A stretch of DNA of 49,365 nucleotides from a virus: positions 1 to 49,365 of the IMG/VR virus record IMGVR_UViG_3300004369_000679. One strand, given 5' to 3'. Shown here one piece after another: positions 27,430 to 49,365 of the stretch; position 1 is the stretch's first letter, and each line of letters begins with the position of its first letter. The translations under genes and the position numbers were made by a program. The notes under the pieces are model-generated. The model did not search any database, had not been told where the DNA came from, and saw nothing but the letters and a program-made list of their open reading frames with translations.

Positions 27430-27435
27430 GAATTC

Positions 27436-27463
27436 ATTATACATGTAAATCTATATAAGTCAA
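27436..27463 (-). promoter_or_regulatory. Sigma-70-type promoter of the hydrolase unit
   Basis: Minus-strand TTGACT (27463-27458), 16-nt spacer, TATAAT (27441-27436). It has the same spacing as the gp55 operon promoter. The -10 ends only 6 nt before the ATG at 27429. Confidence 0.75.
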
Positions 27464-27493
27464 GTAAAAATTAAAACTTGTTATAATGAATAT

Positions 27494-27501
27494 GATAAAT
27501 A
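27494..27501 (+). promoter_or_regulatory. Late promoter motif GATAAATA for the gp25-gp6 operon
   Basis: GATAAATA on the plus strand, ending 5 nt before the gp25 ATG at 27507. If used, transcription would start at or next to the start codon. Confidence 0.5.
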
Positions 27502-27506
27502 CTTGC

Positions 27507-27878: not shown

Positions 27879-30800
27879 TGGCAACAGTAAATAGACAAAA
27901 TAATTTATTTGCCGCAGAAGATTGGAAGGTGGCATACAAGGCATTTAGCCAGGTAGATTTTCAGGCTTATGACTTTGATTCTATAAGAACCACATTAGTG
28001 GATTATATAAGAACAAACTTCCCAGAAAACTTTAACGACTATATCGAAAGTTCTGAATTTATAGCGATTTTAGAATTACTTGCGTTTTTAAGCACCAGTA
28101 TTTCTTTCAGAATGGATATCAATACCAGAGAAAACTTTTTAGAAACTGCTGAAAGAAGAGACTCAATTTTTAAACTTGCCAGAATGTTGGGATATAACCC
28201 CAAAAGAAATTTACCAGCAAGTGGATTAGTAAAATTAACATCTATAGTAACAACTGAAAATATAACAGATAGCTCAGGAAATCAGTTATCAAATACAAGA
28301 GTATTTTGGGACGATGCAAATAATCCTGATAGTTATGAACAGTTTATATTAATTTTAAACTCTGCAATGAGTACCACAAACAGATTTACAGCACCTGTTA
28401 AAGAAGGAAAAATAGCAGGAATACCTACAGAACAATATAATCTAAACACAGTTATAGGATCGCCTATTTCATATACGTTTAATATTAATACAAATGGCGT
28501 AAGTAGAGCTTGTGAAATTGTTAATGGTGATTTTGATGATGGTAAGTATTTTTATGAAAAACATCCTAATCCATTAAACGATTTTAGTTTATTTTATAGA
28601 AATGACGGCAAAGGAATTTCTAGTAATAACACAGGATTCTTTTTATTATTTAAACAAGGCGTACTTAATTTTGAAGATGTAAATTATACTATACCTGTGG
28701 TAAGCAGAACACAAGATTTAAACGTTACAAGTATCAATGAAACTGATGTTTGGGTTCAAGAAATTACAACAGGTGGCACAATATTAAACCAATGGACAAA
28801 GATTCCAAATACTGTTGGCCAAACACTAAACTATAATAGCCTAAAACTAGGATCTAGAAACCTATTTTCTACAGAAAATATAGATAATGCTGGAGTAAGA
28901 ATAAAATTCCCTGATGGCAATTTTGGTAATATTCCAAACGGAGTTTTTAGAATATGGTATAGAACAAGTGATCCTGAATCATATACGATATCACCTGAAG
29001 ACGTTCAAAATGTTAGTGTCAATATACCTTACGAAAATGCCGGTGGTGATTCTCACACACTCACATTAAGTTTTAGTTTAAGATCGCCCGTTAATAACAG
29101 TTTGCCACCAGAGTCTCTAAATGAAATAAAAACAAGAGCACCTGAGGTATTTTATACACAAAACAGAATGGTGAGTGCCCAAGATTATCAGGTATTCCCC
29201 ACAAGTCAATCTTCAAATTTAAGAAAGTTAAAAGCAACAAATAAAACTCATGCCGGGCATAGCAGATATATTGATATAACAGACCCTACAGGAACTTTCC
29301 AAAGTATTGAGTCATATGCGGAAGATGGCGTAATTTATGCAGATGATAAAAGTGTATCAGAATTATTTACTATTAACGAAAACACAACATCATCTGAAAT
29401 TGCTACAAGTATTTTACCATTGTATTTAAAAAATCAATCTTTAAATAATTTTGTTTATAACACAATGCGTAAAAATGTTGTTGCTACCTCTCCTGCTACT
29501 TTTGACACTAGTACAAAAAGAATAAACTGGAAAACATTACCTGTAAAAACAGTTAATACTACAGGATACTTAACTGAGACAGTTATTGAATCTAATGTTG
29601 CTGTAACAAGTGTTCTTATAAACACCACTGCAGACACATCTATGTTTAAAGAAAACAATTTTATTAAATTTGCAGACCCAAACAACATTGGTAATTATAA
29701 ATGGGTAAGAGTTACCAGAATAGATAACAATGGTCAATTATCTAGTGGATTAAGTACATCTACAGGACCAATAAGCATTAGTGCTAATATAAATGATGGT
29801 TGGAAGGCATTAGAAGTAATTGCTACATTAAGAAAAACATTTACTGCAACAGAGCAGAATGCAATTATTACTGAGCTTAATAACAAGAGAAATTTTGGAT
29901 TAGGTTATGATCCTGGTCTAGACGAATACTATATTATTACAAGTAACAATTTATCTGCACCTGTAAATGGTGTTTTACCAGATTACAGTTTTGCGAATGC
30001 CAAAGATACTTCAGGCACAAATGCAGATGCTAGTTATATAATACATTTTAAATATAATCCTATATCTGTTTCCAGTTACAGTTACAATGTAACAGTAAGG
30101 GGATTACAATATGTAATACAGAGCAAAGAAAGTCTAAAATTTTACAATGTTAAAAATGTTAAAATTACAGACAATACTACAAAAGCAGTAAGAGATGTAA
30201 TTACTTTTAACACACTAAACACTAAGCCAGGTGTAACAGAAGTGTTTAAATGGTACGACAATGATGACGACAATAAAGGTGAAGTTTGGCAAAGTCAGGA
30301 AACTGGACAAACATATCTACCTCAAACAACCGTACCTATGTTACCATTAAGAAGTAGAAATTATTATTGGTATGATATAAACTGTGAATGGCAAAGTAAT
30401 TTTGGTTTGCTTAGAGGTCAGGGATTACCTAAAGCAAACATTATAGCAAACAACAGATTTGTAGATGAAGCCACTATACACTTAAATACTTTTTATGAAG
30501 ACAACACAGCATTTGAAACTAGAACAAATGTTACTATCGCTAATGTTACAGGTAGAATAGAGCATTTCCCTGCAAATATAGTTATAGAATTTGATAACAC
30601 AACCTTTGGATACAATTTATTTGATGCTGATGGAAATATAAATTATAAACAAGAAAATACCAGCACAGGATTAGTTGAATTTTTTAGTGGAAACACCAGC
30701 ATTTACACTTATGGAGAAAGTGGAACGCTCTTAGATCCATCAAAAACCGGCAGAATAGTTTTAGCAAATGCAGATCATATTGCACAAACAGGAACATTGT

Positions 30801-32059
30801 ATTATGCTGATGTTCAAGACCCTACAGGATTTTTACATGCATCAGATAGTAGCAGTAACTATAGTGTAGATAAATTTAAAGTTCTGTATTTAAACGACAA
30901 AGAAAAGTTAGACAAAGATATCAAATGGACAATAGCAGACACGTTTAAAGAACCAGACGGTTACGTCGATCCAAGAAAAGTTATTGTGGCACCAATAGAC
31001 TCTGATGAAGATCTAGTACCAGACGAGCCACTGCAATATGATGATTTTGTGGGGCCTAATAGTTTAGTATTTTTTGAATACTATACTGATTTCGATGGTT
31101 ACACATACGACAAACCATCAAGTGGAAAAATTTTAGATTACAGAGGAGAAACCAGTATTAACCTTAGCGATACTGCCTTCTTGTCACCAGCAAGTTATGA
31201 TGCACCTACTAATTGGGAAACTGTAAAGTTCTTAATTGTTGATACGGTTGCTATTGCACAACTACTTAACAATAATTCAGATAGATATCATGGAATGGTA
31301 GTGTATGTCACAGAAAATAAAAAGACATATCAAATGACCAGAAGTAGTACAAACAACACCACAATTACATTAATAGAAACACAGGATTATCTGGTTAGGC
31401 AAGGAAGAGCTTCTACTCAAGACACATCAGTTGTAGATCCGCAAAATGTTATACTTAAATGGAATCATACAGCACCTAATGATGTGAGAATAGATCCTAG
31501 TATTAGTAATGTTGTTGAAATGTTGGTGCTCACAGACACATACTACTCACAAATTTCTAAATATAAAAATGTTCCAGGTACAACATACCCTATAGCACCT
31601 ACAAGTGAGGAACTTGCAAATGAATTTGAAAACCTCAACGAGTTTAAAAATGCTAGTGATACTTTGGTTTATAGAAGTGCAAAATTTAAAATATTATTTG
31701 GTGAAGATGCAGATCCAGAATTCCAGGCAAAATTTAAAGTAGTTAAAATACCAGGAACAACATTAAGTGATAATGAAATAAAATCACAGATCATATCTTT
31801 ATTTAATTCATATTTCTTTGTGGATAATTGGGAGTTTGGTGAAAACTTTTACTTTACAGAACTATCTAGTTATATACATTCTAATATGGGTAATAGTATA
31901 GGAAGTATAATTATACTGCCTAAAAACACATCAGGAAGTTTTGGTGACCTTTTTCAAGTTAAAGCCGAACCTAATGAATTATTTTTAAGCACAGCAACAG
32001 TTAATGATATAACTATTGTAGAAAAAATTAACTCTCAAACATTGAGAACTGATAGATAA
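27878..32059 (+). CDS. gp6: Baseplate wedge protein gp6, extended
   Basis: Main wedge subunit that forms the inner baseplate ring. The N-terminus (KAFSQVDFQAYDFDSIRTTL, then ESSEFIAILELLAFLSTSIS and FRMDINTRENFLETAERRDS) is the gp6/baseplate-J helical region. RMVSAQDYQVFP around residue 430 is the J-type motif. The 1393-residue length is about double T4 gp6 (660); the extra part is mainly in the beta-rich middle (roughly 500-1200). The C-terminal part (IISLFNSYFFVDNWEFGENF, near 1310-1340) returns to the J pattern. It overlaps gp25 and the next gene by TAATG at both ends. Confidence 0.85.
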   Translation: MATVNRQNNLFAAEDWKVAYKAFSQVDFQAYDFDSIRTTLVDYIRTNFPENFNDYIESSEFIAILELLAFLSTSISFRMDINTRENFLETAERRDSIFKLARMLGYNPKRNLPASGLVKLTSIVTTENITDSSGNQLSNTRVFWDDANNPDSYEQFILILNSAMSTTNRFTAPVKEGKIAGIPTEQYNLNTVIGSPISYTFNINTNGVSRACEIVNGDFDDGKYFYEKHPNPLNDFSLFYRNDGKGISSNNTGFFLLFKQGVLNFEDVNYTIPVVSRTQDLNVTSINETDVWVQEITTGGTILNQWTKIPNTVGQTLNYNSLKLGSRNLFSTENIDNAGVRIKFPDGNFGNIPNGVFRIWYRTSDPESYTISPEDVQNVSVNIPYENAGGDSHTLTLSFSLRSPVNNSLPPESLNEIKTRAPEVFYTQNRMVSAQDYQVFPTSQSSNLRKLKATNKTHAGHSRYIDITDPTGTFQSIESYAEDGVIYADDKSVSELFTINENTTSSEIATSILPLYLKNQSLNNFVYNTMRKNVVATSPATFDTSTKRINWKTLPVKTVNTTGYLTETVIESNVAVTSVLINTTADTSMFKENNFIKFADPNNIGNYKWVRVTRIDNNGQLSSGLSTSTGPISISANINDGWKALEVIATLRKTFTATEQNAIITELNNKRNFGLGYDPGLDEYYIITSNNLSAPVNGVLPDYSFANAKDTSGTNADASYIIHFKYNPISVSSYSYNVTVRGLQYVIQSKESLKFYNVKNVKITDNTTKAVRDVITFNTLNTKPGVTEVFKWYDNDDDNKGEVWQSQETGQTYLPQTTVPMLPLRSRNYYWYDINCEWQSNFGLLRGQGLPKANIIANNRFVDEATIHLNTFYEDNTAFETRTNVTIANVTGRIEHFPANIVIEFDNTTFGYNLFDADGNINYKQENTSTGLVEFFSGNTSIYTYGESGTLLDPSKTGRIVLANADHIAQTGTLYYADVQDPTGFLHASDSSSNYSVDKFKVLYLNDKEKLDKDIKWTIADTFKEPDGYVDPRKVIVAPIDSDEDLVPDEPLQYDDFVGPNSLVFFEYYTDFDGYTYDKPSSGKILDYRGETSINLSDTAFLSPASYDAPTNWETVKFLIVDTVAIAQLLNNNSDRYHGMVVYVTENKKTYQMTRSSTNNTTITLIETQDYLVRQGRASTQDTSVVDPQNVILKWNHTAPNDVRIDPSISNVVEMLVLTDTYYSQISKYKNVPGTTYPIAPTSEELANEFENLNEFKNASDTLVYRSAKFKILFGEDADPEFQAKFKVVKIPGTTLSDNEIKSQIISLFNSYFFVDNWEFGENFYFTELSSYIHSNMGNSIGSIIILPKNTSGSFGDLFQVKAEPNELFLSTATVNDITIVEKINSQTLRTDR

Positions 32060-35000
32060 TGGCAAAAATTTACGAACAATTACCACTAGTTAATCAGACT
32101 ATTGCAGTAAAAAACTTTTTTGAAAGTACTGTTGAGCAACTTTTTTCAGAAGTATCTACAGAAACAATTTCAGGATTTATAGGCCACAAAACTAGCAGTG
32201 ACCATAATGTTGATGTATCATTTATTGCAGAGCCTTCTATTAATAGAACATTTTATAGTTTAAGCCCTGCTGTAAATACAATCAATTTAAATACTGGTGT
32301 AAGTGAAGATTTTGTGTTTTTTGATGAATACATTAACACATTAAAAACTTATGGTGCTAATACTATAAATCAAGATAAAATATTTTCTACAGATTTTCAG
32401 ACTTTCCTGCCACCTATAAACGTAGATAAATTAATAAATTACCAGGAATACTATTTTGATCCTAAAACTGTAGCAAATTGTCATGACATTTATACTTGGG
32501 CCGCAAATACATCATACAAAATAAATGATGTAATTTTGCACAGTGGCAATTACTATATTGCTAACAGAAACTTTACTACTGGAAGTTCATTTCTTAATGA
32601 TGCATCAATAGATGATTATAATTATGTACCGGATATAACACAGAGTACAAATGCTGTAATTACAACAAATCAAGACCATAATTTTTATACAGGCGATAAA
32701 GTAGTAATAACAGATGTTCAGGGAATGACAGAGGTCAATAATCAAACATATTATGTTGAAAAAATTACATCCAGAACATTAAAGTTATATACAGACAAAG
32801 ATATCAGAGTACCTTTAGATAGTTCATCGTTTAATACATGGACATCAGGAGGAACAATCACTCATAATAGTGGGCCAACACCAATAAGTATTTCAGGAAA
32901 TGTCTCTAACTATATTGATGTGGAAAAAGACATCACAAATAAAAAATATTACACCACACCACAAAACAAAATTTTTAGAAATGGCATGGTAGTTAAATTT
33001 ACTGGAGATTATGTAATATCTTCCAGTATTGTAAATGATAGAGAATATATTGTTGAAGGTGTTGGTGATGCAATTATATTAGTAGATAAGACAATCAGCA
33101 CAGCATCTCCATATTCTTTTACAACAGGTAAAGATTATATTGTATTAGGAAGAGGCTCAAGCAATAAAAATATTTGGAGTAGAACTAATTTTTGGTGGAA
33201 AAAAGAAAATTATTTAGATGCAGAGGACAGGATTCCTAATTCAGGAAAAAGATCATTAAGACCTATTTTAGAATATGATGCAGATCTAGAGTTGTACAAT
33301 CATGGCATAAACTATAAAGCCAGTGTAGATTTAAGTATTGACACCCTTACATTTGAACAAGCAAATAATTTATCAACGTCACAAATGATTGATGGTATTG
33401 ATGTGTCTGATGTATCTAAAACATTTACTTGTATTTTTCCTAATGAATCAGAATTAATTAGTAAAAATATATACACTATAAATGCAAGTGGATCAACTTT
33501 ATTATTTTCAAGTACCCAAACATTAGAAAAAAATGATATTGTTATTATTACACAAGGACAAAATAATAAAGGTTTAGAATATTTTATAGGAATATCTGGA
33601 TTTGAATTAGCACAAAGCAAACCTAATAGATCTACTCCGCCGCTATTTACTTTATACAGGGATGACAAATCATACCTGGGAGATAATACATTATACCCAT
33701 TAAATAATTTCAGCGGAAACAAAATTTTTGGACATAAATTAGGCTCAGGTGCCAACGATTCAGAATATGGTTTTCCTTTAAGTTTTAAATCCTTTAAAAG
33801 TTCAGGTGAAATTGAATACGAAAACTTTTTAACAAATAGCTCTTACAACTTCACAGCAGTTGGTTCTACAACGCCTACAACAATTAACGGATACTATTAT
33901 TACAAGTTATTAAAACCTGAAACAGAGTATCACAAACTTTATAAAAATAGTAATAAAAGACACAAGCAAAGAATTAATACTCATTATCAAATCACTAGTT
34001 TGGAAGTTGATCAGGAACAATTAGTATATTTTTGTGGTGCAGAGCCTATTGCAGATACAAATATGCAAAGTGGTTATGATATACGAGTAAAAGTTAATAA
34101 TGTTGCTAATAATGATTTTACATATTTTGGAAATAGTTATATTAAATTTAACAACTTTACATTTACTAAAGGTGATTTAATAGACGTTAGTGTTAGATCA
34201 AATAAAGGGTTATTTTCTGAAAATAGCATTAGTAAATATGAATTACCATTGAGCTGGTCTAGAAATCCTCTTAATGAAGAAATAGCAACAATATCTGAAC
34301 CAGAGTTTTTACAGCACTTCACTAATTACATGGAATCACAAGTTGGGTTTTCTGGAAATGTATTAGCAAGTAATAATTTTACTAACACTACAAAAGAAAC
34401 CAGATTTGCTACTGATATTGTGAAAACCACACAAGACACATTACTGGGTGCTTTTTTACTTGATGACAAACCTTACAATTTAATAGACGCAATAAGGTTT
34501 AACAAAAAAGAATTTTCCAAATACAAGAAAAGATTCTTAAATGAATTAACCACATATTTTAATACATCAGATATTTCAGATCAAACAAATGATTTTATTT
34601 TAGAAAAAGTTTTAAGAAGTGTTATCTCATTTAGTGTGGGAAGAAAAGTATTTAACCAAACATACATTATACCATTTGGTGACAACTATTTTGATGAAAC
34701 TCACACCATATCTGACACCTCAATCGCAGAGCATACCATCACTCATTATGCAGATTTGTCAAAACTTGAAAACAGTTTGCTAATTTATAAAGATAGAGGT
34801 ACATCAAGAACACTATTGCGTATTGGAGAGGACTATAATATTAGCTCATATAATCCAATTACTATACAACTTTTAAATATATCGGATTTTAATACTGGTG
34901 ATATTCTAACATTTAGATTTTACGATGCTGACAGAGACAGTGGCCAGTGTCCGCCAACACCTAGTGCTATGGGACTATACCCACTTTATCAGCCTTCAAA

Positions 35001-38000
35001 AGTTACAGACAGCAGTTTCCAAACTCCACAAACACTGATTATTGGACATGATGGTTCCAGAACTCCATTGTTTGGTGATAGAAGAGACGATATTGTTTTA
35101 GAGTTTGAAAATAGAATTTACAATAGTGCTAAAAAAGAATTCAGAGATGCAAACAGTTTAGGTTTTTATAGCTCTGTAAATATTAGACCTGGATATTTTA
35201 GAAATACAGATTTTGAAATCACAGACTGGAGTGATTTGTTAAATATGAGCTTCCAGGATTGGGCTAATGAAAACAATGTAGATCCAATAGTTAATGATTT
35301 TTATGATCAGGCTAATGAATTTACCTGGAATTACAGAGGCAATACTGACATTCCTGGCTACTGGAAGGGGTGGTACGAATACTATTACGACACAGTAAGA
35401 CCTAACACCCATCCATGGGAGATGCTAGGATTTACAGAAAAACCTACATGGTGGGATACCAGATATATTACAGCAGTTTATACTGATTACAGCAGTAGTA
35501 ATACTCCTATGTGGCAAGACATAGAGCAGGGTATAATTAGGCAAGGTCCAAGAGAAAACTTCAGCAATGGCATATACAAATTGTCAGAGTTTAATCCCTA
35601 TAGAAGAATAGGATTACTAGACATACTTCCTGTGGATGCAAATGCTAAATTGATATCACCGTATGATATTGCAAACACTGGTGCAACAACTATTACACCA
35701 ACTTATACTAATAGTGAGCCAGACACTTCACAGGGTTATTTTACAACCAGTTTTCTAAAACTAGACGGAATTAATGTAAATTATAGTTCTTCTAATGTAT
35801 TTGTAAAAAGTAATAATATTATAAATCACAATGTAACCATATCTGATAGCAGTATAGAATACACACCTTCTAAAAATCAAGAATTAACTTACACTATTCC
35901 AAAAGTAAATTTAGCCAGTATTACTACAGTTGCAAATCAGGCACAAAATAGTGATGCTATTGCTTTAGCAATAAATGGTCTACCAATTTACAATATACAG
36001 GATTCTAATACCTGGAATAACAGTAATTATCACTACAATAAAGTAGAATCAGAAGTAAGTGTATTTGCATTAGGCAATACAACTACAAACGGAGTACAAT
36101 ACTACTATACATTAACAAAAGATGTAGTAGGTGAAACAGCATGGGGTAATTCGACAACACACTCAGGCATAGTAGGCTGGGCTTTTGATGGCTTACCAAT
36201 TTATGGTCCATATGGTTATGCAAATTTGGCAGTAAATGGTGACATCACAGATAGTAATATTTCAATTATTAAAAGTTGCTTCGAATTAAAATCCGGCAAC
36301 AGGGATTCAGTGATGGGCGGTAAAGGAGCCCATACTGGTGAATTTACAGAAGATTACGAATTTAAAGGAACTAACCAGGGCCAAACAGGATATGTTGGTA
36401 ATGATGGAAACGGTAAATTTAATATGCGATATGGAAAAACACCAGAGTCTCCAAATACCGCAATTAAATATTATGTACTTACTCATGACGATAATCTAAA
36501 ACCAATGTTCCCATATCATGTGGGTGGCGGTGAGCAAAACTTTAATGGAGCAACATTAACATACGCAAACAGATATTTTGCAACACCTATAACTGAAAAC
36601 AATTTAAATGCCGGCACTTTTGATACAACAGCCACAAATGCTATAATTAGTGCCTATAGTGAAGCACAAACAACATCAAATGATATAAACAACCAATGGA
36701 GAATTGGAGATGGTGCTCCTGTAGAAAATGCATGGAAATATTCTACAGATTATCCATTTGCAGTAGCAGAGGCATTGTTAATTGCTAAACCAGGATTATT
36801 TGCTACAATGTTCTCAGACCCTGTAAAGATAAAAACAGCCACAATAGATAGAAGAAATTATATCAGTACAGAAACTAATAAAAAATGGCTATTTACAGAT
36901 AAAACAGATTTTAAAGTACATGGCGAAACAGACAGCGACGGCCTTAAGATATCTAACATAGGTTATACACAATTTATTGATTCCTGGTTAAAGTTTCAGG
37001 GATTAGAAATAGAAACTGAATTTGCAGAAAAACTTAGAACTTTAAATATTAAACTTGGCCATAGGTTTGCTGGATTTGTAGATAAAGATACAATGAGATT
37101 ATCTTTAGATCAATATAGTGCAACAGGCTCATCAACTAACCTTATTTTACCAAATGAAAATATCACAATTGATGTACATGATTCAGGATATAAATCAAGG
37201 AATTTTTACAGTGGTGTAATAATTGAAAAGACAGTAAATGGATGGAAAGTAAGAGGATTTGACAAGCAAAAAGGATACTTTGAAACATTACAACTAGATT
37301 TCAACGGTGCAACAGAAAATGTTAATGTAGGCGGAGATCCTGTTAGCCATAGTGTTTGGGCGGCTAATGTTTCATATAACATCAATAGTTATGTAGAATA
37401 TCAAGACGTGTATTACAGAGCTATTTCAGATGTACCAAGTAGCGAAACTTTTAATATTTTATTCTGGCAATCATTAAGTGCATTACCGCAAGAAAATAGT
37501 GCATCAGCAGTATATTATCAGAGCAGTACTGATGTTGTAGAAAAAGTTTATTACGATACTGAATACACAGATATTCAGAGTCTATTCAATTTTTTAATTG
37601 GATTAGGAAGATTCCAGGAAAGAGCAGGATTTTATCTAGAGCAGTACGACTCAGAAATTGCAGATGTTAGAGGGTGGTTATTTGCCGCAAAACAGTATTT
37701 GTTCTGGACAACAGGAAGTTGGCAAGTAGGTAATACTATAGAGTTGTCTCCTATTTCAAACAGAGTTGCATTTACACCGCCTAACACAGGATTTGTAAGT
37801 AGAATTTTAAGATCAGAAAGAGACATGTTCTCTATAGTGGATCAAAATGGTAGAGCAATAGAACCTACAGAATGTGCAATATTAAGAGAAAACACATCTA
37901 TAGAAATTGTACCACCAGCAGGACAAGATATTTACGGTATAGTTCTTTATGCTAAAGAGCTTGAACATGCCATGGTAATAGACAATGTTACAGACTTTGC

Positions 38001-41000
38001 GGACACTTTATTTGATCCAAAAATTAACCAAAGACAAAACAGAATTAAAATTAAAGCAACACGAACATCAGCATGGGACGGAAGATTTGTAACAAACGGT
38101 TTTATAATTGATGGTGATGAGTTAATACCTAACCTAGACACACTTGCTGGTACTATGACCAGATATAATGAAGTAGGTTTTATACCGGTACAACGAGATG
38201 TTTATGATGTAAGTAGAAGGCAGTACGGGTATCAGGAAAGAAGTTATTTGAATGAATTAGATATCACAGACGATCAACAATTCAATTTCTATAAAGGAAT
38301 GATCCAGTCTAAAGGTACTGCAAACAGTTTAAGCAGAATAGCACGAAGTAATAAAATTGTTCAGGGCGAGATGAATGTCTATGATGAATGGGCAATCAAA
38401 GTGGGAGACTTTGGTGATGTAAATAATGATCAAAGCATTGAATTAAAGATTGATAGAGCAAACGTATTACAGGACCCACAATTAATTACACTTGCTTTTC
38501 CACAGGATACCACAGGTGTAGTAACAAAGATAGACGTTGTAAATAGAAAGCACAAATATTTTAGTCTGCCAACAATTACAATTAATAACCCATTAACAGG
38601 TTCAAATGTTGCTACAGCAGAAGCAACATTATTTGCTAATGGAGAAATTAACAATATCACAGTTACTAATGCTGGTTCCGGCTATACCAGTGGAGCAAAT
38701 CTAGTTATAGAAACAGCAACTATATCAACATTTAATACAGATACTTCACTAACAAAAACAGATGCATTATCATCTAACTATGTAACATTAAAAGAATATG
38801 ACGGTGCAAACGCCAATTTACTTGTTAATAGTGATGTTGCTAACATTACAGGCTTAGGAAATTTAACACTGACAGATCATTTTGGTGTATCAAATGCTAA
38901 CGCACAATTAAACACAGCAACATCAACATATGATTTAAGTAGTATAACTGATTTAGCCAATGTTGCAACACTTATAAACAATGACGCAACAATGAATGCA
39001 AACATCACTGCTAGTGTTATTACAATAAGTGGAGTAAGTAACATAAGCAGTAGTTCTGCAAATGTAGGATATTTTACATATTTACAAATTTCAGGTAACG
39101 ATTTTTCACTTTCAGATGATGATGGAAATGTAACTTTAGGTAAATTGCAACTGGCCGATAGTAGTAATAGGTATCAACCAAAACAAAGACATAAAGTATC
39201 AATCGCAAACAATACAAGCAAATCAAATGTTGTAGTAAGTGTATCAAATGTCACAGTAGATAGTTCTAATTACGATTTTGATGCTGGTGGTAGATGGAAG
39301 ATAACACCAAGTATAGAAACTTCTGGAAGTGGAGCAAGTGTTACTTTTAATCTTGCTGGAGGAACCGGATATAATGTTACGCAAATTACACCAGATGATC
39401 TTGGTAATGTAAAAACTAGTTTTGATATAATAAATTATACTACAAAAGACAACAATGATTACAGTTTTGTTGATGTATATCTAGATGACAGATACATTGA
39501 GAACGAAGGTGATATAACATACTACACATTAACTAACAACAGTATTACATTCGCAAATGTTGAGTTATTGCCAGGTGCTAAAATTAATAAAAATGCAAAC
39601 GTTTATGTTATAGAGCATGCCACAATAGACTTCGTGGATTCATTCCAGGGCGATCTTCCAGGTGCAACACTAAACGTTAAAGCATTTACTAATGATGATA
39701 TCACTGTACATTTGGGTACAAGACGTAATTATGAAATTACTCCAGATGCAAATGATGATGAAGTAATTTTATTAGACATAGACGACAAAACCAAGTTTCT
39801 TAAAAAACCCACAGGCTTACGATCAGATGAGTTATGGGCTACAACTTCAAATGTAAGTTCTATTGGTATTACAGATAGTAAATTTAATCCGTTACCAAAT
39901 TCAGGTTATGTAAATCCTGATAATGTAACATATCAGGCATTTAGTATTCCAAGTATTTCGAGTTTATTTGCTGAAAATATAATTTATAAACCAGAAGCAA
40001 ACGACACTATTCATGTTGCAAAAGCAGAAAACTCAGACTGGAATGTGTATAAATTAACAGACACAAATGCTACACTAAGTTTTGTAGAACAAGATGATTT
40101 TACAGAAACAGCATACTTGTATCTTAATGATGTAGATTTATTCAATTACGTGGATAACAACGCAATCGGTGGAATAGATAATAACAGATATTTAGATTAT
40201 CATTTGATTATTAAAGATGCAAATTTATCAGATCAATTTGTAGTTTGGACTAATCAGGAGATTGTAAGTAAAAAAGGTGTAACAATATCAGACTTTGCTG
40301 GTGCAAATATGATAACTGCTAACATTGTAAATATTGGACCTTACGATGTTGCTAACACAGTTTTAACCATTAATAATATCAGCGGCTCACCTACACAAAG
40401 TACAGTTGCTACAGCAAACACAACAAGTACTCCAGGTGTTATACAGATTTCAACAAGTATGTATAATTTGGAAAATAACGACATTGTTAGTTTTAGCGAA
40501 ACACAACCTTCACAAGTTACATTTAATGTTACAAGTGTAGAGCCTGTAAGAGTTACAGTAAGTGCAAATGTTTCTACATCATCAAATGTGGTAAGTTATT
40601 CTTCTAATGCAAGTTTAACATTTGAAAAACTATCTTACGATGGAAACAGTATTATAATTCCTTTACCTGATATAGATGCAAATCAATACTCCAATGTTAC
40701 AGCAGGAAGTTTTAATATTGGTACAGAATACATAATATTAGAAATAGGAAATACAGATTGGAATACTGCGGCTGGTACCACAGGTGTTACCTACGTAGTT
40801 GGAGACACTTTTACAAGTAGCACAGCAGGGTCAGGCACAGGTGTAGCGGCGCCAACATCAGGAATAGAATATATTACAGACACTGATTTAACAATTCCAA
40901 ATAGTTATTTGTCCTCATCAAACACACTAGTAACCGTTTCATTTGTAGATACAGAGCTTTTAAAATTAAATGTTGCAAATATACATCAAAGCGGTGCAAA

Positions 41001-44000
41001 TATTGTTAAAGCAGGAAGAACAATAGATATAGTTTCAAGTAACTCATCTATAAATCAAGATAATTTTACTATTGAAGAAGTGGGTGAGCATTATATAGTT
41101 GTAAGAAGTGAAGATTTCCTATTAGCAGATTCCCCAGACTCTGCTAATGTTGAAGTAATTGATATAGCCAATATGTCAGTTACTGGTTTCCAATATAATA
41201 ACCATAGCAACATACATAATAACACATACTCTATTACAAATGTATCAAGTAGAGGATTTACTATTGCAGATGCAAATATAACAGCAAATATTTCACCAGA
41301 AATATTAAGCATGAGTTATTTAGGTAAGGCCAAAATTAGTGTAAGCAACAATGATCACAATTTAGCGTCTGGTGATATTGTAAAATTAGTTGCTAATACA
41401 TACAGTGGATATTACTATGTTGAAAGTGCCACAGCAAATACTTTTGTTATTGATGCACCATACAATACTAATGTACCTAAATCAGGAAGTGTAATTAAAG
41501 CAGGATTACAAATAGAAACTGATGTTGCACACGGAATAGACAGCACATATGAAGGCAAAAGAATTGCTGTTCATATGGCAGAGCCTAAATATTATAACAG
41601 AGTTTATGTTGTGGATAGTATAACAAGCAACACAACAATTAAAATTTCAGATGCATACAGTTATGGCGTAACAGCAGATAGCCAATTTACTCCATGGGGA
41701 GCAGGTAACAGTATTGTTAAAGACGAAAGAATAAAAAATATAAATGTGATGTATCTCGCAACATCTTCATTTACTGCTGGTAGTACATTTGATGCATCTA
41801 ACTTACTAATTACTAAACCTGCTGTATTAACTACAATAGATCACAACAGAATTAAATTAAACAATAGTGATATTGTGTTAAATGATATAAGTTCAGAAGA
41901 TGCTGTTGTACAAAGTTTAAACACAGCAATGGCATTAAGAAGAGGAGCAATAGATACAGACCATGGACAAATATCGTTCCCAATGCTTACTGGAAACTTT
42001 GATCAAAAACTTAAACCTATATTGGGAGATTACAGACAAATAGCAGGTTCTACTCCTTATGTTACTGCAGAAGATATTGATAACACACCATTAACTGATG
42101 GCTTATCAAGAGCAGGAACTATGAACATAAGGACCTTTAATAAAGGATTTGAAAACAATGATCTTAATCCATTATTAGCACAACCACAAAGTCAATTATC
42201 TACATTAAATACAGATCCATCTAATCCTGCATACTTAGGAAAAAATAACAATTACAGTAATAATGCAAGTAAAATGGATATACCATTGTTTAATGTACCT
42301 GATAGTAATTTTACGCCTATGCCTAATACAGGATTTGATAGTGGTGCAAAACCAATTATTGATCCGCGTAAAGCATTAGCAGATACATTGAAAAAACCTT
42401 GTGTAGAAGTATGTGCTCCAATTAAACCAGTTTCAAGTCCTGTGGTACCTATTTTACCACCACAACGTACAACAATAGATTATAGTGGAACACTATTACA
42501 TCCAGACACAGGTAATCCTGGAATTAAAATTATTTCTGCTAACAGTAAAGGTGCAAGAAAATGGACCAGTGAATGGGCAGGTTATTTTTATAAAACAGGA
42601 AGTGGATATGGAAGTAATAATCAAGTAGGTGGCACCAGAGGAGGATTATCTGCAAAAGGTTTAGCAGGGCTTTTAATTTGGAGTGATAACGGTAGTACTC
42701 AAACATTTAATATTAGTATCAAATTTAGTAAAGCAGGAACTTTTTATCTACATGCATTAAGAGCCGGTAGAGCTGGGTACGAAGACAGAAACTATGTAAC
42801 ATTTTCAACAGCATCAAATGGATCTTTAAGACACAATGCTAAATTTGTTAGTAAGACAAGTTTAGATGGTACTAATGCTAAAGAATTCACAGTTGCAGAA
42901 AACGAAGTAGTCACTTTTAGAGGCACAGCAAGAGCAGGTAAAAATCACTGGAACGGTTTCGCTATATGGTTATCAACATCACCTAATGGATTTGAAACAT
43001 CAGTATCTAAACTGATTACTCCAAAATCAGGTAGTAGCACAGGATACGGAAATATACCACAACAAAATTATTCGGCTACTAACACTATAGTATCATATCA
43101 CGAACAACACGCAAGAACAGCCAACGGTACTGATGAAGATTTCTTTGTATTAACTAACAGCGGCCAAATTCAGATACTATTTGATTTTTATAGTGGTGCT
43201 GACAGATTAGACGTATATCAAGGTGTAAGTAAAGGTGGCGAAAATCTTAAACTAGGTTCTACTGATGACACACTGATAAAATTAACTGACGTAGAAAAAA
43301 ATGAAATATTAAACAAGGTAGGTGGGCAGACAAACTCATCAACACAATCAGGTAGAGCAGGTGGCTCCACAACACAGAATTCAACATACCATTCCAGTTA
43401 CAAGCCTACTATAAGAGATTTTGATAGATCTGGACAATATGTAAAAAATGGCGGTAAATTATTACTAGATGTAGATATTGCTAATGGAACATATTTAAAG
43501 ATTGTGATACGAAAACCAAGTAGTGTTTATAGATATGTTTTAAAATTACCAAATCAACCACAGAAAAAAATAGATCCACCTAAAGATCAAAAATGTGCGT
43601 CATCTAGAACACAAACACCTATATATCAACCACACGGACAGCCTGTAACACAAAAGAAAAAACCTGGAACTGGCAATAGTGGAGGTGGCAGTGGAGGTGG
43701 TGGCTCTATCTATTCTGGTGGAGGATCAGGTGGAGGATCTGCATCTAGAAAAAATAATTATTCTGCAGGTAGTGTTAGGTATCAAGGATCTGTTTATAAT
43801 TACATGCAAAACTATGGAGGATTTGGACTAGCACCTATGGCAGGTTTTAGTATGATCCCTGATATATTTAAAAAGACTGTCAAAGTTACATCTTCAAACA
43901 CTTATGGAAAATATCAACCACTTACTACAGGACAATATGTAAATAATACTGTACAAAGAGTTACAGGTAATCAAATATTACCACTTGCAAGGCCATTAAG

Positions 44001-47000
44001 AAACGTTGCACCATCAAGGCCTGGTCCATTAAGAGCATTAGATTTATCTAACTATCCATTCTGGAACGAACTTAAATATACAGGTGACAATTATTATATT
44101 AAAGGTAATAATATCTTTACATATGAGCCTGGAAAAATTGGTTCAGACATAAGACTAAAAGACGGAACTTTAATAGGAAATGTTTTAGATGATTTAAATG
44201 TTTCAGATTCCTTTGCAGGAGAAAGTATTTCATTTATATATCCAGGACAATTACCAAACATATTGCCTAATCCTGATAACGAAGCAATGCCATTGTTGCC
44301 TAACGACGCAGTGGTGCCACCAGAAGATGCACCAGTAGATCCAGATATAGATTATAACAAAGCACCTATAATAGAAATTACACCTAAACTCAAAAATGAA
44401 TTAGGAAATTATCTTCCAGCAGGTCCAACAATACAATGTGAATTAAGCAGACCAACACCAGGGCATGTTATTGCATTAGATGAAATGACTGGTGTTAAAC
44501 CAGGCGATGAAATTATAATTAATAAAATACCTATTAGATTCCCTGGTTCTGATCCCAAAGTGATAGAAAACGCATTGCGATGTACTCAGGGTGGCGGATT
44601 TAAAGTGATGGATACATTTAAAAATGGAAAACCAGCACTAAGAATCAGTAGTTGTACAAACGCACCACTAACAATCAGAGACGGTTGTGCAGGTGGTGTT
44701 TATAAGGAAGTTTTAGATTTCCACGTTGTCAGAGGATTCGAACAATTATCAGTAAGCAATACAGTTGTTGTTCCAGCAACTACCGGTTATACAGGTACAT
44801 CAGGAAACACCTATGTTGATATAGGTACTAATTTAGAATCAACATACACAATGTATAATGCAGAAGGTGTTGTTACAGACTATACAGGATCAGACAGAAC
44901 TGTACAAAACTCCACAACACAATCAGGTTCCATACTGTCCAGCAAATCATATAGCATGGGCGGAAGTGGATATCAGATAGGAGATAGATTAAGACTAGTA
45001 GGCGGATTACCAATCGAAAACCCATATGGTGGAATTACCGAACTTTGTATTGATAATCCGGGATTAGGATACTCTAGTCCAGTTAATGTAAAAGTTTATA
45101 TTGGAGACGGTACCACACCTGGATCAGGTGCTAGAGCCGGCAGAGTAACATTAAACAGCGATGGTGGAATTACAAGTGTTGAAATTTTATCTGGTGGAGA
45201 AGGTTATGATTTCTCTAATCCTCCTAAAGTTAGAATTGTTGATATAGGTGCTTATGCAGGATTTACTGCCATTAATGCGTCTATTACACCTAAAGTGGGA
45301 ACTGGCAAAGGAATGCCACCAAGAGTTGCTAAGTTTATTGTTTCTGCTGTTGATAATAATGGTGCAATTTTAGGAATTCAGATTATAGATAGAGGGATTT
45401 ACAAACAATTCCCATCAGATTTAACAATGGGTGTTCCATTAGAGTATGATGCTGTTGGACTGGGTGATGAAACAGGAATAGATCCCACAACAGGAAAATA
45501 TTATCAGGGAACTGGTTTAGGACAATTTAGTCCATTAAACGATAACGAAGTATTGCCACCTCCTGGTGCATATAATCCTCTCACATCAGACTTTGGTGGT
45601 GGTACAGGTGCTAGAGTATTCCTTACAGCAAGAGAAATACCAGATTGTTCAGAAAGAGGTGATGCAAGAAGCCAATTAGGATTACCTGAAACTGTCGTGG
45701 ATATTAATATCCCAGAAGATTTATCAGCATGTCTTAACACAGCTCTTGCTGATGCAGGTTATGATCCTAACAAAGTAAATTTCGATACAGAGCCTCTTAA
45801 TCCATATATAGATCTGTTAAAATTAAGAACTCCAGGTTATGATGGCGTAGAAATAGGAGAAGGCACACCAGGATTTTTAGATAAATTGGGTATTCCTGCT
45901 GGTGATTATAATATAGACAGTTTATGTATTGACGCAAACATAATTACAGCAGATAATCCTAACCCTAGACCTGATGGAAAAGTACAAGTGGGTACAAATT
46001 TATTAGACGACAATAGATATCCTATACAAACTACAACAGTATCACCTAAAATAACAATTAACTGTATTGACACAATTGGCCCAGGTTACGATGGTACTGG
46101 TGCAAGGCTAACAAATAATCAATTGCCAGGTAATGGAAACGGTCAAGATGCAAACAGCATATTGGGAGGTGCAAATGTTGCCTTTACAACCGACATGTTC
46201 CAATATGAATTAAGAACACCTGATGGAAGAGCAGTAAATACAGAAAATTTCCAACAAGAGTGTAAAGTATTGTATTTAGAAAGTGCAAGATATAACACCG
46301 AAGCAGGTTTAGATCTAGCAAATGTAAGTAATGTATGGATTGACAATTACAGCAACTCAGGTTGGGCATATTTTGAAAGCAGTAATATCCCAAGTATTAC
46401 ACAGCCTAAACTAGTTGATACAACCTTTGTAAAAAATGCTATACTTTATGATCAGGAAACTGGTGAAAAAGAATACGATTTACATTTTTATGATCCATTT
46501 AAAGGAATTATACCAGGGTTCATACAAAAAGAAATTCATTTTACTGGAGAAAGTGATCCAGTAGTTTATAATAATACTAGAACTGGGTTTGGAAGGAAAG
46601 ATATAGGTAAAGTTTGGTGGAATACCAGCACTATATCATATCAATGGTATGAGCAAGGGTCTAACAGAGAAAGATGGCTTAATTGGGGTAAAACATTTCC
46701 TGGTAGTGGTGTTACATTATATGAATGGGTAGAATCTTTAGTACCTCCTTCACAATGGGGTAGTGATGGACAACCTAAAAATGGTAGCGAATTTGTATTA
46801 GAAAGAAGATACGACACTACAACTAGAACATTTAGAAATTTTTATTACTATTGGGTACAAAACAGAACCGTATTAGAAGAAACTCCTAGAAGAAACTTAG
46901 GTCGAGAATACGATACCTTTACACTAGCAAAATATATTGCAGATCCAGTAGGCTCTGGATTGCCTTTAATTAGTTTTGTAAGCGATAAATCAGTTGTGCT

Positions 47001-49365
47001 GACAAACATAGCACCTTTATTAAGAGAAGACGAGCAAAACTTACAGATTAACTTTAGCAGAAACTTAAATCCTGTAGGCCAAAAACATACAGCATGGAAA
47101 TTATTAAGGGAACATGATAATAACAGTTATATACCTGAAGATTTAAGTGATAAACTGATAGATAGTTTGGCTGGAGTAGATGCATTAGGACAATCTGTTC
47201 CAGATCCACTGTTGAGTGAAGTAGAGGCATGCGGTATTCAATTTAGGCCAAGACAGAGCATGTTTAAAGACTTAAAAGGTGCTAGACAGGTATTACATTA
47301 TACATTAAATGAGATTTTAGCAGATTTAAAACTGAACACCAACTATCCTAATTGGGATAGCACATTACCTACAGTAAGAACCTATATTGAGTCAGTAAAT
47401 TGGTATGAAACACAATATGTAGACGCTTCTACAAACAAAAAAGTAAGATATGACAATACATTTAAGCCTATATACAAAGTAAATAGTGTAAATGAGTTGG
47501 CAACTCTTCAAAATATTCCAGATAACACTATAGTACAAGTAAAAAGTCCAAATTCTACAGAATATTCACTTCATAAGTACATAGCATCGTCTCAGACCTT
47601 TGAAATGATTAGTATCACAAATGATAATGTGAAATTAAAAGAAACTGTTTATACAGACATCACAAATCCAACTTTAAGCAGTGAAATTAGACTACTTTTA
47701 AAGGCTCTTAAAGATAATGTTTTTGCAGACACTAATTTATGGAATAGATTGTTCTTTGCACTATTAAAATTTGCACATTCTGAACAAAAACAACTCAGTT
47801 GGGCGTTCAAATCCAGTTATATCTATATAGAAAAAGAAGAAGAAGATTTAATTGAGGTGAATGGTTTTAAAGTTGATAATTTTGACAAGGTTTTACAATA
47901 TTTTGATGAGGTTAAACCATATACATCTAAAATTAGGGAATATAAAGACGGAAAATCGCCTGTTAAAGAAACTATAGGCACAAATTCTGTTAGTGACTTT
48001 GATAAGCCGCCTTATGCTGACCCAGTTACAGGAAATGTAAGAATTCTAGACGATTTCATACAAGCAGATTCTAATATTATACAAACAAACAATGCTTATA
48101 CAAAATACTACAGCATTAGTAACAAATCTTTAGATCCTATTAGACATAGTAATACAACTATTAGGTTTGATAGAGTGGATTATAACCTGTTACCACATGA
48201 TTACAGACCAGCAGTTAATGTTTCGGAGTGGCAGGCTAATACTTCATACCCAAGAAGTTCATATGTTGTACATAATGACATATATTACAAAGCAAATGCA
48301 GATGTTTCAGAAAGTAACACATTTGTAAGTTCAGCATGGGTTAGTTTAGGACAGAAATATATTAGCCCTGTGGCATCAGAAGCAAATATATATTACTTAC
48401 CAATACCTCAAGCAGATACTATGAATAGTGCTATTGCTAGAAACATAGTAACATTAACATTACAATCTAATAGCCAGATACAAGCAAACACTTTAATCAA
48501 TGCATCAGAGAGAGCATTTAAATTTAATCCTGCAATACAAACTCAATTTACAGCAGAGTTAAACGACTACTATAGCATAACAGATGCAGTATCAAATGCT
48601 AATGTAATTAATAGCTCAAATATATCAAGCAGTATAGCAAATATTACAGCAGTTGTCAATGCAGGTGGTTTAAATAAAACCTTAACACTTGTAAAAACAG
48701 CAACAGGCGGCGATTTCCAGGGCGATATTATAGATGCTAATTTGTTTAGCCAACAATTTGGTGTAGATTCAAATACATACAACGAAAATATTGGGTTTAA
48801 CAGGCTAGGATGGAATGCATACGGCTTAGATACAAAAATTGATATCACAAATTACGATGGTGTGTTTAATACATCTATTTCTGGAAACGAAGTAACATTT
48901 GAAAAAGATGGTGTGCTGTATGATGGCTTTGATGGTGTTACATTTAAACGGGTTCTTTATGGAGAAGAAAGACCTCAAGAGCTATCATTAATTGAACCTT
49001 TAGAAAATTTAATTATAAGAGTTACAACTCATGCGTATCAAGATGGTGATGCTAATAGTAATGTTGTATCATCAAATGCAACCACAGTTAAATATCTAAT
49101 GACAAATAATATTTACGGTGACTCAGAATTTATAAGAATAAAACAAGACGGTACAACTACTACAACTTTAACTGCAAACTTATACACTTATAGTGATGAA
49201 ATAAGTGTTGCAAATGCCAGTGTATTAGCCAAACCTTTGAGCAGAATACCTGGTGTTATTTGGGTAGGCTCAGAAAGAATAGAATATACAAAAAGAAATT
49301 TAGCGACCAATACATTGGGCGAAATTACCAGAGGCACAAACGGTACATCTAATCAGGATTGGACT
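32059..49365 (+). CDS. Giant baseplate-position structural protein, over 5769 residues, 3' end outside window
   Basis: The frame starts at the ATG overlapping the gp6 stop and stays open for 5769 codons to the window edge. It occupies the place of T4 gene 7 (wedge protein, 1032 residues) but homology to gp7 is not shown. Visible modules: three W-x-A-N-x-S-Y...V-x-x-x-x-x-Y-Y segments at residues about 147, 1767 and 5391, like CBM5/12 chitin-binding modules; a YHYH-like domain about 1290-1490 (SNYHYNKVE, then FDGLPIYGPYGY); a GTEYIILEIGNTDW phage repeat near 2890; a beta-domain around 3490-3650; a natural Gly/Ser linker at 3875-3894; and GxGY-type repeats near 4330-4400. Composition is rich in Asn, Thr, Ser, Gly and Tyr, beta-prone, with no signal peptide. 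Probable baseplate wedge or fibre network combined with receptor or glycan binding. Confidence 0.75.
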   Translation, partial: MAKIYEQLPLVNQTIAVKNFFESTVEQLFSEVSTETISGFIGHKTSSDHNVDVSFIAEPSINRTFYSLSPAVNTINLNTGVSEDFVFFDEYINTLKTYGANTINQDKIFSTDFQTFLPPINVDKLINYQEYYFDPKTVANCHDIYTWAANTSYKINDVILHSGNYYIANRNFTTGSSFLNDASIDDYNYVPDITQSTNAVITTNQDHNFYTGDKVVITDVQGMTEVNNQTYYVEKITSRTLKLYTDKDIRVPLDSSSFNTWTSGGTITHNSGPTPISISGNVSNYIDVEKDITNKKYYTTPQNKIFRNGMVVKFTGDYVISSSIVNDREYIVEGVGDAIILVDKTISTASPYSFTTGKDYIVLGRGSSNKNIWSRTNFWWKKENYLDAEDRIPNSGKRSLRPILEYDADLELYNHGINYKASVDLSIDTLTFEQANNLSTSQMIDGIDVSDVSKTFTCIFPNESELISKNIYTINASGSTLLFSSTQTLEKNDIVIITQGQNNKGLEYFIGISGFELAQSKPNRSTPPLFTLYRDDKSYLGDNTLYPLNNFSGNKIFGHKLGSGANDSEYGFPLSFKSFKSSGEIEYENFLTNSSYNFTAVGSTTPTTINGYYYYKLLKPETEYHKLYKNSNKRHKQRINTHYQITSLEVDQEQLVYFCGAEPIADTNMQSGYDIRVKVNNVANNDFTYFGNSYIKFNNFTFTKGDLIDVSVRSNKGLFSENSISKYELPLSWSRNPLNEEIATISEPEFLQHFTNYMESQVGFSGNVLASNNFTNTTKETRFATDIVKTTQDTLLGAFLLDDKPYNLIDAIRFNKKEFSKYKKRFLNELTTYFNTSDISDQTNDFILEKVLRSVISFSVGRKVFNQTYIIPFGDNYFDETHTISDTSIAEHTITHYADLSKLENSLLIYKDRGTSRTLLRIGEDYNISSYNPITIQLLNISDFNTGDILTFRFYDADRDSGQCPPTPSAMGLYPLYQPSKVTDSSFQTPQTLIIGHDGSRTPLFGDRRDDIVLEFENRIYNSAKKEFRDANSLGFYSSVNIRPGYFRNTDFEITDWSDLLNMSFQDWANENNVDPIVNDFYDQANEFTWNYRGNTDIPGYWKGWYEYYYDTVRPNTHPWEMLGFTEKPTWWDTRYITAVYTDYSSSNTPMWQDIEQGIIRQGPRENFSNGIYKLSEFNPYRRIGLLDILPVDANAKLISPYDIANTGATTITPTYTNSEPDTSQGYFTTSFLKLDGINVNYSSSNVFVKSNNIINHNVTISDSSIEYTPSKNQELTYTIPKVNLASITTVANQAQNSDAIALAINGLPIYNIQDSNTWNNSNYHYNKVESEVSVFALGNTTTNGVQYYYTLTKDVVGETAWGNSTTHSGIVGWAFDGLPIYGPYGYANLAVNGDITDSNISIIKSCFELKSGNRDSVMGGKGAHTGEFTEDYEFKGTNQGQTGYVGNDGNGKFNMRYGKTPESPNTAIKYYVLTHDDNLKPMFPYHVGGGEQNFNGATLTYANRYFATPITENNLNAGTFDTTATNAIISAYSEAQTTSNDINNQWRIGDGAPVENAWKYSTDYPFAVAEALLIAKPGLFATMFSDPVKIKTATIDRRNYISTETNKKWLFTDKTDFKVHGETDSDGLKISNIGYTQFIDSWLKFQGLEIETEFAEKLRTLNIKLGHRFAGFVDKDTMRLSLDQYSATGSSTNLILPNENITIDVHDSGYKSRNFYSGVIIEKTVNGWKVRGFDKQKGYFETLQLDFNGATENVNVGGDPVSHSVWAANVSYNINSYVEYQDVYYRAISDVPSSETFNILFWQSLSALPQENSASAVYYQSSTDVVEKVYYDTEYTDIQSLFNFLIGLGRFQERAGFYLEQYDSEIADVRGWLFAAKQYLFWTTGSWQVGNTIELSPISNRVAFTPPNTGFVSRILRSERDMFSIVDQNGRAIEPTECAILRENTSIEIVPPAGQDIYGIVLYAKELEHAMVIDNVTDFADTLFDPKINQRQNRIKIKATRTSAWDGRFVTNGFIIDGDELIPNLDTLAGTMTRYNEVGFIPVQRDVYDVSRRQYGYQERSYLNELDITDDQQFNFYKGMIQSKGTANSLSRIARSNKIVQGEMNVYDEWAIKVGDFGDVNNDQSIELKIDRANVLQDPQLITLAFPQDTTGVVTKIDVVNRKHKYFSLPTITINNPLTGSNVATAEATLFANGEINNITVTNAGSGYTSGANLVIETATISTFNTDTSLTKTDALSSNYVTLKEYDGANANLLVNSDVANITGLGNLTLTDHFGVSNANAQLNTATSTYDLSSITDLANVATLINNDATMNANITASVITISGVSNISSSSANVGYFTYLQISGNDFSLSDDDGNVTLGKLQLADSSNRYQPKQRHKVSIANNTSKSNVVVSVSNVTVDSSNYDFDAGGRWKITPSIETSGSGASVTFNLAGGTGYNVTQITPDDLGNVKTSFDIINYTTKDNNDYSFVDVYLDDRYIENEGDITYYTLTNNSITFANVELLPGAKINKNANVYVIEHATIDFVDSFQGDLPGATLNVKAFTNDDITVHLGTRRNYEITPDANDDEVILLDIDDKTKFLKKPTGLRSDELWATTSNVSSIGITDSKFNPLPNSGYVNPDNVTYQAFSIPSISSLFAENIIYKPEANDTIHVAKAENSDWNVYKLTDTNATLSFVEQDDFTETAYLYLNDVDLFNYVDNNAIGGIDNNRYLDYHLIIKDANLSDQFVVWTNQEIVSKKGVTISDFAGANMITANIVNIGPYDVANTVLTINNISGSPTQSTVATANTTSTPGVIQISTSMYNLENNDIVSFSETQPSQVTFNVTSVEPVRVTVSANVSTSSNVVSYSSNASLTFEKLSYDGNSIIIPLPDIDANQYSNVTAGSFNIGTEYIILEIGNTDWNTAAGTTGVTYVVGDTFTSSTAGSGTGVAAPTSGIEYITDTDLTIPNSYLSSSNTLVTVSFVDTELLKLNVANIHQSGANIVKAGRTIDIVSSNSSINQDNFTIEEVGEHYIVVRSEDFLLADSPDSANVEVIDIANMSVTGFQYNNHSNIHNNTYSITNVSSRGFTIADANITANISPEILSMSYLGKAKISVSNNDHNLASGDIVKLVANTYSGYYYVESATANTFVIDAPYNTNVPKSGSVIKAGLQIETDVAHGIDSTYEGKRIAVHMAEPKYYNRVYVVDSITSNTTIKISDAYSYGVTADSQFTPWGAGNSIVKDERIKNINVMYLATSSFTAGSTFDASNLLITKPAVLTTIDHNRIKLNNSDIVLNDISSEDAVVQSLNTAMALRRGAIDTDHGQISFPMLTGNFDQKLKPILGDYRQIAGSTPYVTAEDIDNTPLTDGLSRAGTMNIRTFNKGFENNDLNPLLAQPQSQLSTLNTDPSNPAYLGKNNNYSNNASKMDIPLFNVPDSNFTPMPNTGFDSGAKPIIDPRKALADTLKKPCVEVCAPIKPVSSPVVPILPPQRTTIDYSGTLLHPDTGNPGIKIISANSKGARKWTSEWAGYFYKTGSGYGSNNQVGGTRGGLSAKGLAGLLIWSDNGSTQTFNISIKFSKAGTFYLHALRAGRAGYEDRNYVTFSTASNGSLRHNAKFVSKTSLDGTNAKEFTVAENEVVTFRGTARAGKNHWNGFAIWLSTSPNGFETSVSKLITPKSGSSTGYGNIPQQNYSATNTIVSYHEQHARTANGTDEDFFVLTNSGQIQILFDFYSGADRLDVYQGVSKGGENLKLGSTDDTLIKLTDVEKNEILNKVGGQTNSSTQSGRAGGSTTQNSTYHSSYKPTIRDFDRSGQYVKNGGKLLLDVDIANGTYLKIVIRKPSSVYRYVLKLPNQPQKKIDPPKDQKCASSRTQTPIYQPHGQPVTQKKKPGTGNSGGGSGGGGSIYSGGGSGGGSASRKNNYSAGSVRYQGSVYNYMQNYGGFGLAPMAGFSMIPDIFKKTVKVTSSNTYGKYQPLTTGQYVNNTVQRVTGNQILPLARPLRNVAPSRPGPLRALDLSNYPFWNELKYTGDNYYIKGNNIFTYEPGKIGSDIRLKDGTLIGNVLDDLNVSDSFAGESISFIYPGQLPNILPNPDNEAMPLLPNDAVVPPEDAPVDPDIDYNKAPIIEITPKLKNELGNYLPAGPTIQCELSRPTPGHVIALDEMTGVKPGDEIIINKIPIRFPGSDPKVIENALRCTQGGGFKVMDTFKNGKPALRISSCTNAPLTIRDGCAGGVYKEVLDFHVVRGFEQLSVSNTVVVPATTGYTGTSGNTYVDIGTNLESTYTMYNAEGVVTDYTGSDRTVQNSTTQSGSILSSKSYSMGGSGYQIGDRLRLVGGLPIENPYGGITELCIDNPGLGYSSPVNVKVYIGDGTTPGSGARAGRVTLNSDGGITSVEILSGGEGYDFSNPPKVRIVDIGAYAGFTAINASITPKVGTGKGMPPRVAKFIVSAVDNNGAILGIQIIDRGIYKQFPSDLTMGVPLEYDAVGLGDETGIDPTTGKYYQGTGLGQFSPLNDNEVLPPPGAYNPLTSDFGGGTGARVFLTAREIPDCSERGDARSQLGLPETVVDINIPEDLSACLNTALADAGYDPNKVNFDTEPLNPYIDLLKLRTPGYDGVEIGEGTPGFLDKLGIPAGDYNIDSLCIDANIITADNPNPRPDGKVQVGTNLLDDNRYPIQTTTVSPKITINCIDTIGPGYDGTGARLTNNQLPGNGNGQDANSILGGANVAFTTDMFQYELRTPDGRAVNTENFQQECKVLYLESARYNTEAGLDLANVSNVWIDNYSNSGWAYFESSNIPSITQPKLVDTTFVKNAILYDQETGEKEYDLHFYDPFKGIIPGFIQKEIHFTGESDPVVYNNTRTGFGRKDIGKVWWNTSTISYQWYEQGSNRERWLNWGKTFPGSGVTLYEWVESLVPPSQWGSDGQPKNGSEFVLERRYDTTTRTFRNFYYYWVQNRTVLEETPRRNLGREYDTFTLAKYIADPVGSGLPLISFVSDKSVVLTNIAPLLREDEQNLQINFSRNLNPVGQKHTAWKLLREHDNNSYIPEDLSDKLIDSLAGVDALGQSVPDPLLSEVEACGIQFRPRQSMFKDLKGARQVLHYTLNEILADLKLNTNYPNWDSTLPTVRTYIESVNWYETQYVDASTNKKVRYDNTFKPIYKVNSVNELATLQNIPDNTIVQVKSPNSTEYSLHKYIASSQTFEMISITNDNVKLKETVYTDITNPTLSSEIRLLLKALKDNVFADTNLWNRLFFALLKFAHSEQKQLSWAFKSSYIYIEKEEEDLIEVNGFKVDNFDKVLQYFDEVKPYTSKIREYKDGKSPVKETIGTNSVSDFDKPPYADPVTGNVRILDDFIQADSNIIQTNNAYTKYYSISNKSLDPIRHSNTTIRFDRVDYNLLPHDYRPAVNVSEWQANTSYPRSSYVVHNDIYYKANADVSESNTFVSSAWVSLGQKYISPVASEANIYYLPIPQADTMNSAIARNIVTLTLQSNSQIQANTLINASERAFKFNPAIQTQFTAELNDYYSITDAVSNANVINSSNISSSIANITAVVNAGGLNKTLTLVKTATGGDFQGDIIDANLFSQQFGVDSNTYNENIGFNRLGWNAYGLDTKIDITNYDGVFNTSISGNEVTFEKDGVLYDGFDGVTFKRVLYGEERPQELSLIEPLENLIIRVTTHAYQDGDANSNVVSSNATTVKYLMTNNIYGDSEFIRIKQDGTTTTTLTANLYTYSDEISVANASVLAKPLSRIPGVIWVGSERIEYTKRNLATNTLGEITRGTNGTSNQDWT

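Follow-up and report, generated by a model that had tools for sequence, protein, structure and literature searches.

The reading frame that opens at position 32059 of the window, the stretch of 49,365 bases analysed here, and runs to its last base is genuine and constitutes one gene, and its product is probably a single very long virion protein of the tail baseplate, at its wedge or periphery, in which a conserved scaffold carries modular insertions. The giant size stems from elaboration at defined sites and not from the joining of gp7 to gp8 and gp10. The source is an uncultured myovirus akin to the jumbo phages PA5oct, RaK2 and Atu_ph07, and in a comparison of portal proteins the nearest cultured phages were those of the PA5oct group (~53% identity). 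Judged by relatedness and domain content, this myovirus and its uncultured clade are probably marine. A published description of the giant protein was not found in the literature outside subscription journals.

The gene of the giant virion structural protein (32059..49365, plus strand) starts with ATG and comprises 5769 codons without a stop. The other five frames over the same interval contain 241 to 716 stops apiece, with a longest open run of 176 codons, and at the local base composition (stop probability of 0.080 per codon) the probability of such a frame arising by chance is about 10^-209. Since the window is the entire IMG/VR record, the missing stop is due only to the contig edge. Relatives were collected using both ends of the window protein, and the whole genes were then read. 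The complete gene is uninterrupted in L034 (5797 aa) and in L035 (5900 aa), two close relatives from separate contigs; both proteins are ~67% identical to the window protein and terminate 54 residues beyond the residue aligned to the window's last codon, so that a full length of ~5,823 aa (~640 kDa) is expected and about 54 codons plus the stop codon are absent at the 3' end. Complete orthologue frames of 5544-6539 aa were also present in 12 further contigs, one of them 339,794 bp long, which brings the contigs with a complete uninterrupted frame to 14 altogether. Between the window and L034, pN/pS was 0.34 overall and 0.19-0.56 across all 300-codon blocks; because it stays below 1 in every block, the frame is translated and constrained from end to end. 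The sequence-only reading had described a single unfinished frame of at least 5769 codons encoding a protein of more than 600 kDa, far larger than T4 gp7 (1032 residues), with its stop expected beyond the right-hand edge, and all of this was borne out; the interval contains no other long frame. The protein may be cleaved after synthesis.

Upstream of the giant gene, the window contains gp53-, gp5-, gp25- and gp6-like genes. The gp25-like baseplate wedge protein (27486..27878, plus strand; phrog_43, E 5.1e-14) is followed by a gp6-like baseplate wedge protein of 1393 aa (27878..32059, plus strand; phrog_10646, E 0; phrog_219, E 3.7e-19), the stop codon of which overlaps the start of the giant gene by one base (TAATG). 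As the gp6-like protein is about twice the size of T4 gp6 (660 aa), enlargement also affects the giant protein's neighbour. An esterase/lipase-like ORF with a weak phrog_789 match lies on the opposite strand within the run of baseplate genes (26821-27444, minus strand). Elsewhere in the window, a small ORF of 140 aa (13662-14084) resembles a GIY-YIG-type nuclease by eye, and a repetitive ORF that looks tail-fibre-like by eye (2-2929, minus strand) continues past the left edge of the contig. In the close relative L008, the giant gene is followed by one small ORF and then by a fibre-like gene, and gp8 was not recognised downstream of it; a downstream ORF of this contig (15861-17282), which is without a PHROG match, appears Hint/intein-like by eye in its C-terminal half.

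All three thirds of the giant protein have matches to the virion structural protein family phrog_10938 (E 7.6e-159, 6.2e-79 and 1.1e-71). Homologues in this family are PA5oct gp355 (3857 aa), RaK2 gp465 (3326 aa), Atu_ph07 gp180 (4449 aa), a Phosso protein of 4555 aa and SCTP-2 gp140 (3807 aa). The homologue is encoded directly after gp6 in PA5oct, Atu_ph07, Phosso and RaK2, and in SCTP-2 the gp6 match is located elsewhere in the genome, away from the 3807-aa homologue. The record of PA5oct gp355 carries an ESI-MS/MS mark, and on the strength of this record note the giant protein is predicted to be present in the virion.

The anatomy of the protein was derived from an alignment of 18 homologues, in which three common blocks and two main insertion sites were observed. 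Core block 1 (aa 1-1250; 32059..35808, plus strand) is kept in RaK2, PA5oct, Atu_ph07, Phosso and SCTP-2 and contains an E1_FCCH-type beta domain (aa 199-269) as well as a CBM5/12-like stretch (aa ~147-190). It is followed by insertion 1 (aa 1255-1590; 35821..36828, plus strand), which harbours a YHYH-type domain (PF14240 at aa 1289-1478) and measures 313-386 aa in the marine clade versus ~60 aa in isolated jumbo phages. Core block 2 (aa 1600-2250; 36856..38808, plus strand) contains a second CBM5/12-like fold (aa ~1767-1808) and the motif FYxGMIxxKGTxxS (aa 2075-2091). Insertion 2 (aa 2250-4750; 38806..46308, plus strand) is partly Gly/Ser-rich, with a linker at aa ~3875-3895 (43681..43743, plus strand), and bears a GxGY repeat module at aa ~4302-4400 (44962..45258, plus strand) that recurs in the N-terminal region of cyanophage gp7. 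The last of the common blocks, core block 3 (aa 4780 to the contig edge; 46396..49365, plus strand), is conserved in the jumbo-phage homologues and under the strongest purifying selection.

The extra size consists mostly of insertion 2 and the ~275-aa YHYH-type module, both placed between conserved core blocks. Insertion 2 is 2501 aa long in the window protein, 2135-2930 aa across the clade that the uncultured contigs form and ~1415 aa in Atu_ph07 and Phosso, and it shrinks to 484 aa in SCTP-2, 192 aa in PA5oct and 176 aa in RaK2. A tblastn search of 50,697 phage records with the window's insertion 2 yielded nothing, nor did it match any Pfam family, and when Pfam was applied to insertion 2 of 13 members no family occurred in more than one of them. 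Self-comparison of the giant protein at E <0.01 revealed no internal repeats, and PDB sequence searches gave nothing usable, whether the query was a profile of core block 1, 2 or 3 or a beta-sandwich-like insert segment. The CBM5/12-like folds in core blocks 1 and 2 are indicated by two weak sequence matches to PF02839 (26.0 and 19.9 bits, cutoff 26.2) and by Foldseek comparisons of low-confidence models with chitin-binding domains (probability 0.99-1.00, rmsd 2-3 A over 45-50 residues, E ~0.1-0.4). A third CBM-like motif in core block 3 (aa ~5391) is a sequence pattern situated outside the Pfam slice used.

In T4, a (gp6)2-gp7 heterotrimer is present in each wedge. The sequence-only reading had placed the giant frame in the gp7 position; this holds for its place directly after gp25 and gp6, but neither the sequence comparisons nor those of low-confidence models showed homology to T4 gp7, so that 'gp7' is to be read as a statement on position. 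Aligned with T4 gp7 by hhalign, each of the three core blocks reached a probability of at most 0.33%, and no match to phrog_964 (T4 gp7) was found in the giant protein. AlphaFold models of aa 1-1190 and 1590-2245 had mean pLDDT values of 50 and 53, and Foldseek detected no T4 baseplate match for these low-confidence models; because of the low pLDDT, the small chitin-binding fold is the only Foldseek match that was taken into account. Among viral proteins, Foldseek returned mainly members of this family, for example Atu_ph07 and uncultured phage proteins annotated as YHYH.

Giant proteins in the same position are also known from T4-like cyanophages (phrog_2885), namely P-SSM2 gp7 (5195 aa), which is annotated as such, and the proteins of S-SSM5 (6171 aa), ACG-2014d (6817 aa), ACG-2014g (7019 aa) and P-TIM40 (7351 aa). 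Pelagimyophages have been described to lack T4 gp7, which is apparently replaced by the VrlC protein there and in cyanomyophages (PMC7029224). The GxGY module was aligned to cyanophage gp7 by hhalign with a probability of 79% (E 1.5e-5) and by blastp to ACG-2014g with E 4.6e-6. Only the YHYH domain and the GxGY repeats are clearly common to the window protein and cyanophage gp7. Cultured marine cyanophages, with 5195-7351 aa in this slot, provide earlier and in part longer examples of the kind, which the sequence-only reading does not mention; together with the 3.3-4.6-kaa homologues of cultured jumbo phages they leave little cause for surprise.

A docking scaffold with surface-contacting modules is proposed since it fits the position, the family and the domains of the protein. 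The three core blocks would form the scaffold, whose most likely docking site, to judge by gene order, is gp6/gp25, in the manner of T4 gp7, and which would bear the outer baseplate. From it would project the two modular insertions, that is the YHYH-type domain and the ~2,500-aa stretch with its GxGY beta-type repeats and Gly-rich linkers, as an expanded string of beta modules. Together with the CBM5/12-like folds of the core, these insertions probably contact the cell surface or fibres, a contact that we infer to involve glycans, and probably help to signal, as a trigger, the contraction of the sheath. The very large peripheral baseplate structure suggested by the sequence-only reading is plausible. 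Insertion 2 might conceivably form an appendage of the baseplate that is specific to this lineage, with the wedge protein itself encoding a fibre-like arm for receptor contact, but this is rather doubtful.

Three other origins or roles of the long frame appear improbable to different degrees. Its length could be an artefact of assembly or sequencing that masks stops or a frameshift, as the source record is a metagenome contig and as the giant gene of the relative L021 has an in-frame TAA at position 1720 of that contig where two near-identical contigs have TAC; yet this stop is a single C-to-A change among 13 differences, mostly in third positions, and may represent a sequencing error or a broken allele. 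Independent contigs share the frame over its full length and pN/pS is below 1 in each block, and by this agreement an artefact is refuted for practical purposes. If neighbouring baseplate genes had fused (gp7 with gp8 and gp10 or fibres), this would accord with the downstream region of L008, where gp8 was not recognised and a fibre-like gene comes after one small ORF, but gp8- or gp10-type PHROG or Pfam matches occur nowhere in the giant protein and the extra length lies in internal insertions that vary among relatives instead of in end blocks, which makes such a fusion very unlikely. Hardly more probable is that the YHYH insertion acts as a metal-dependent wall hydrolase on the baseplate, in line with the enzymatic role predicted for the YHYH domain of jumbo phages (PMC7824862). 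PF14240 scored 58.5 bits, far over its cutoff of 25; the namesake tetrad, however, is absent from the window protein, from all its relatives and from the cyanophage gp7s examined, and with only one invariant His column in the domain of the marine clade the His triad of a metal site has not been retained.

Compatible with the proposed scaffold is the possibility that the giant protein, T4 gp7 and the cyanophage giant gp7 are true, though divergent, orthologues, with the same gp6-binding core that has grown independently in each lineage; this is a stronger statement because it claims common descent, and we hold it to be somewhat less probable than not. It agrees with the identical gene position, with the YHYH domain and GxGY repeats common to cyanophage gp7 and with a motif, FY..KG(T/I)..S, which is found in T4 gp7 (aa ~730), cyanophage gp7 and the window family (aa 2075) and of which F, G, I, K and G are invariant over the 18-member alignment. 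This motif is at present a lead, being short, found after the fact and differently spaced. Against common descent speak the hhalign values for T4 gp7 given above and the value of only 0.07% for core block 1 with the N-terminal core of cyanophage gp7 (P-SSM2/S-SSM5 type); a segment of the middle core reached 84% (E 7e-6) with the cyanophage N-termini, but the convincing part of this alignment is the terminal GxGY repeat.

The extra length of these proteins is traced to insertion sites in a baseplate scaffold that is otherwise conserved, both in cultured jumbo phages and in an uncultured clade. Proteins of 5-7 kaa follow gp6 in two phage groups, perhaps having arisen independently, and the cultured PA5oct and RaK2 proteins offer practical minimal models for the core structure.

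Compared with T4 gp7, the window gene is alike in its placement after gp6 in the wedge operon and possibly in the short FY..KG..S motif, whereas the protein differs in showing no significant sequence match and, with low-confidence models, no fold match to the 1032-aa T4 protein. With the cyanophage giant gp7 proteins it shares the position after gp6, the YHYH-type domain and the GxGY repeats, at a comparable or shorter length, but its core blocks have no detectable homology to theirs and the context of their YHYH domain is different. The closest resemblance is to the phrog_10938 proteins of jumbo phages, to which it is homologous over the three core blocks (24-31% identity overall) and with which, in PA5oct, RaK2, Atu_ph07 and Phosso, it has the site directly downstream of gp6 in common; unlike the cultured members of 3326-4555 aa, it has ~1,100-2,300 additional aa at a single central site, besides a YHYH module that sits elsewhere. 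The giant protein is large but ordinary for its group, as proteins that match or exceed its length in this slot are already on record.
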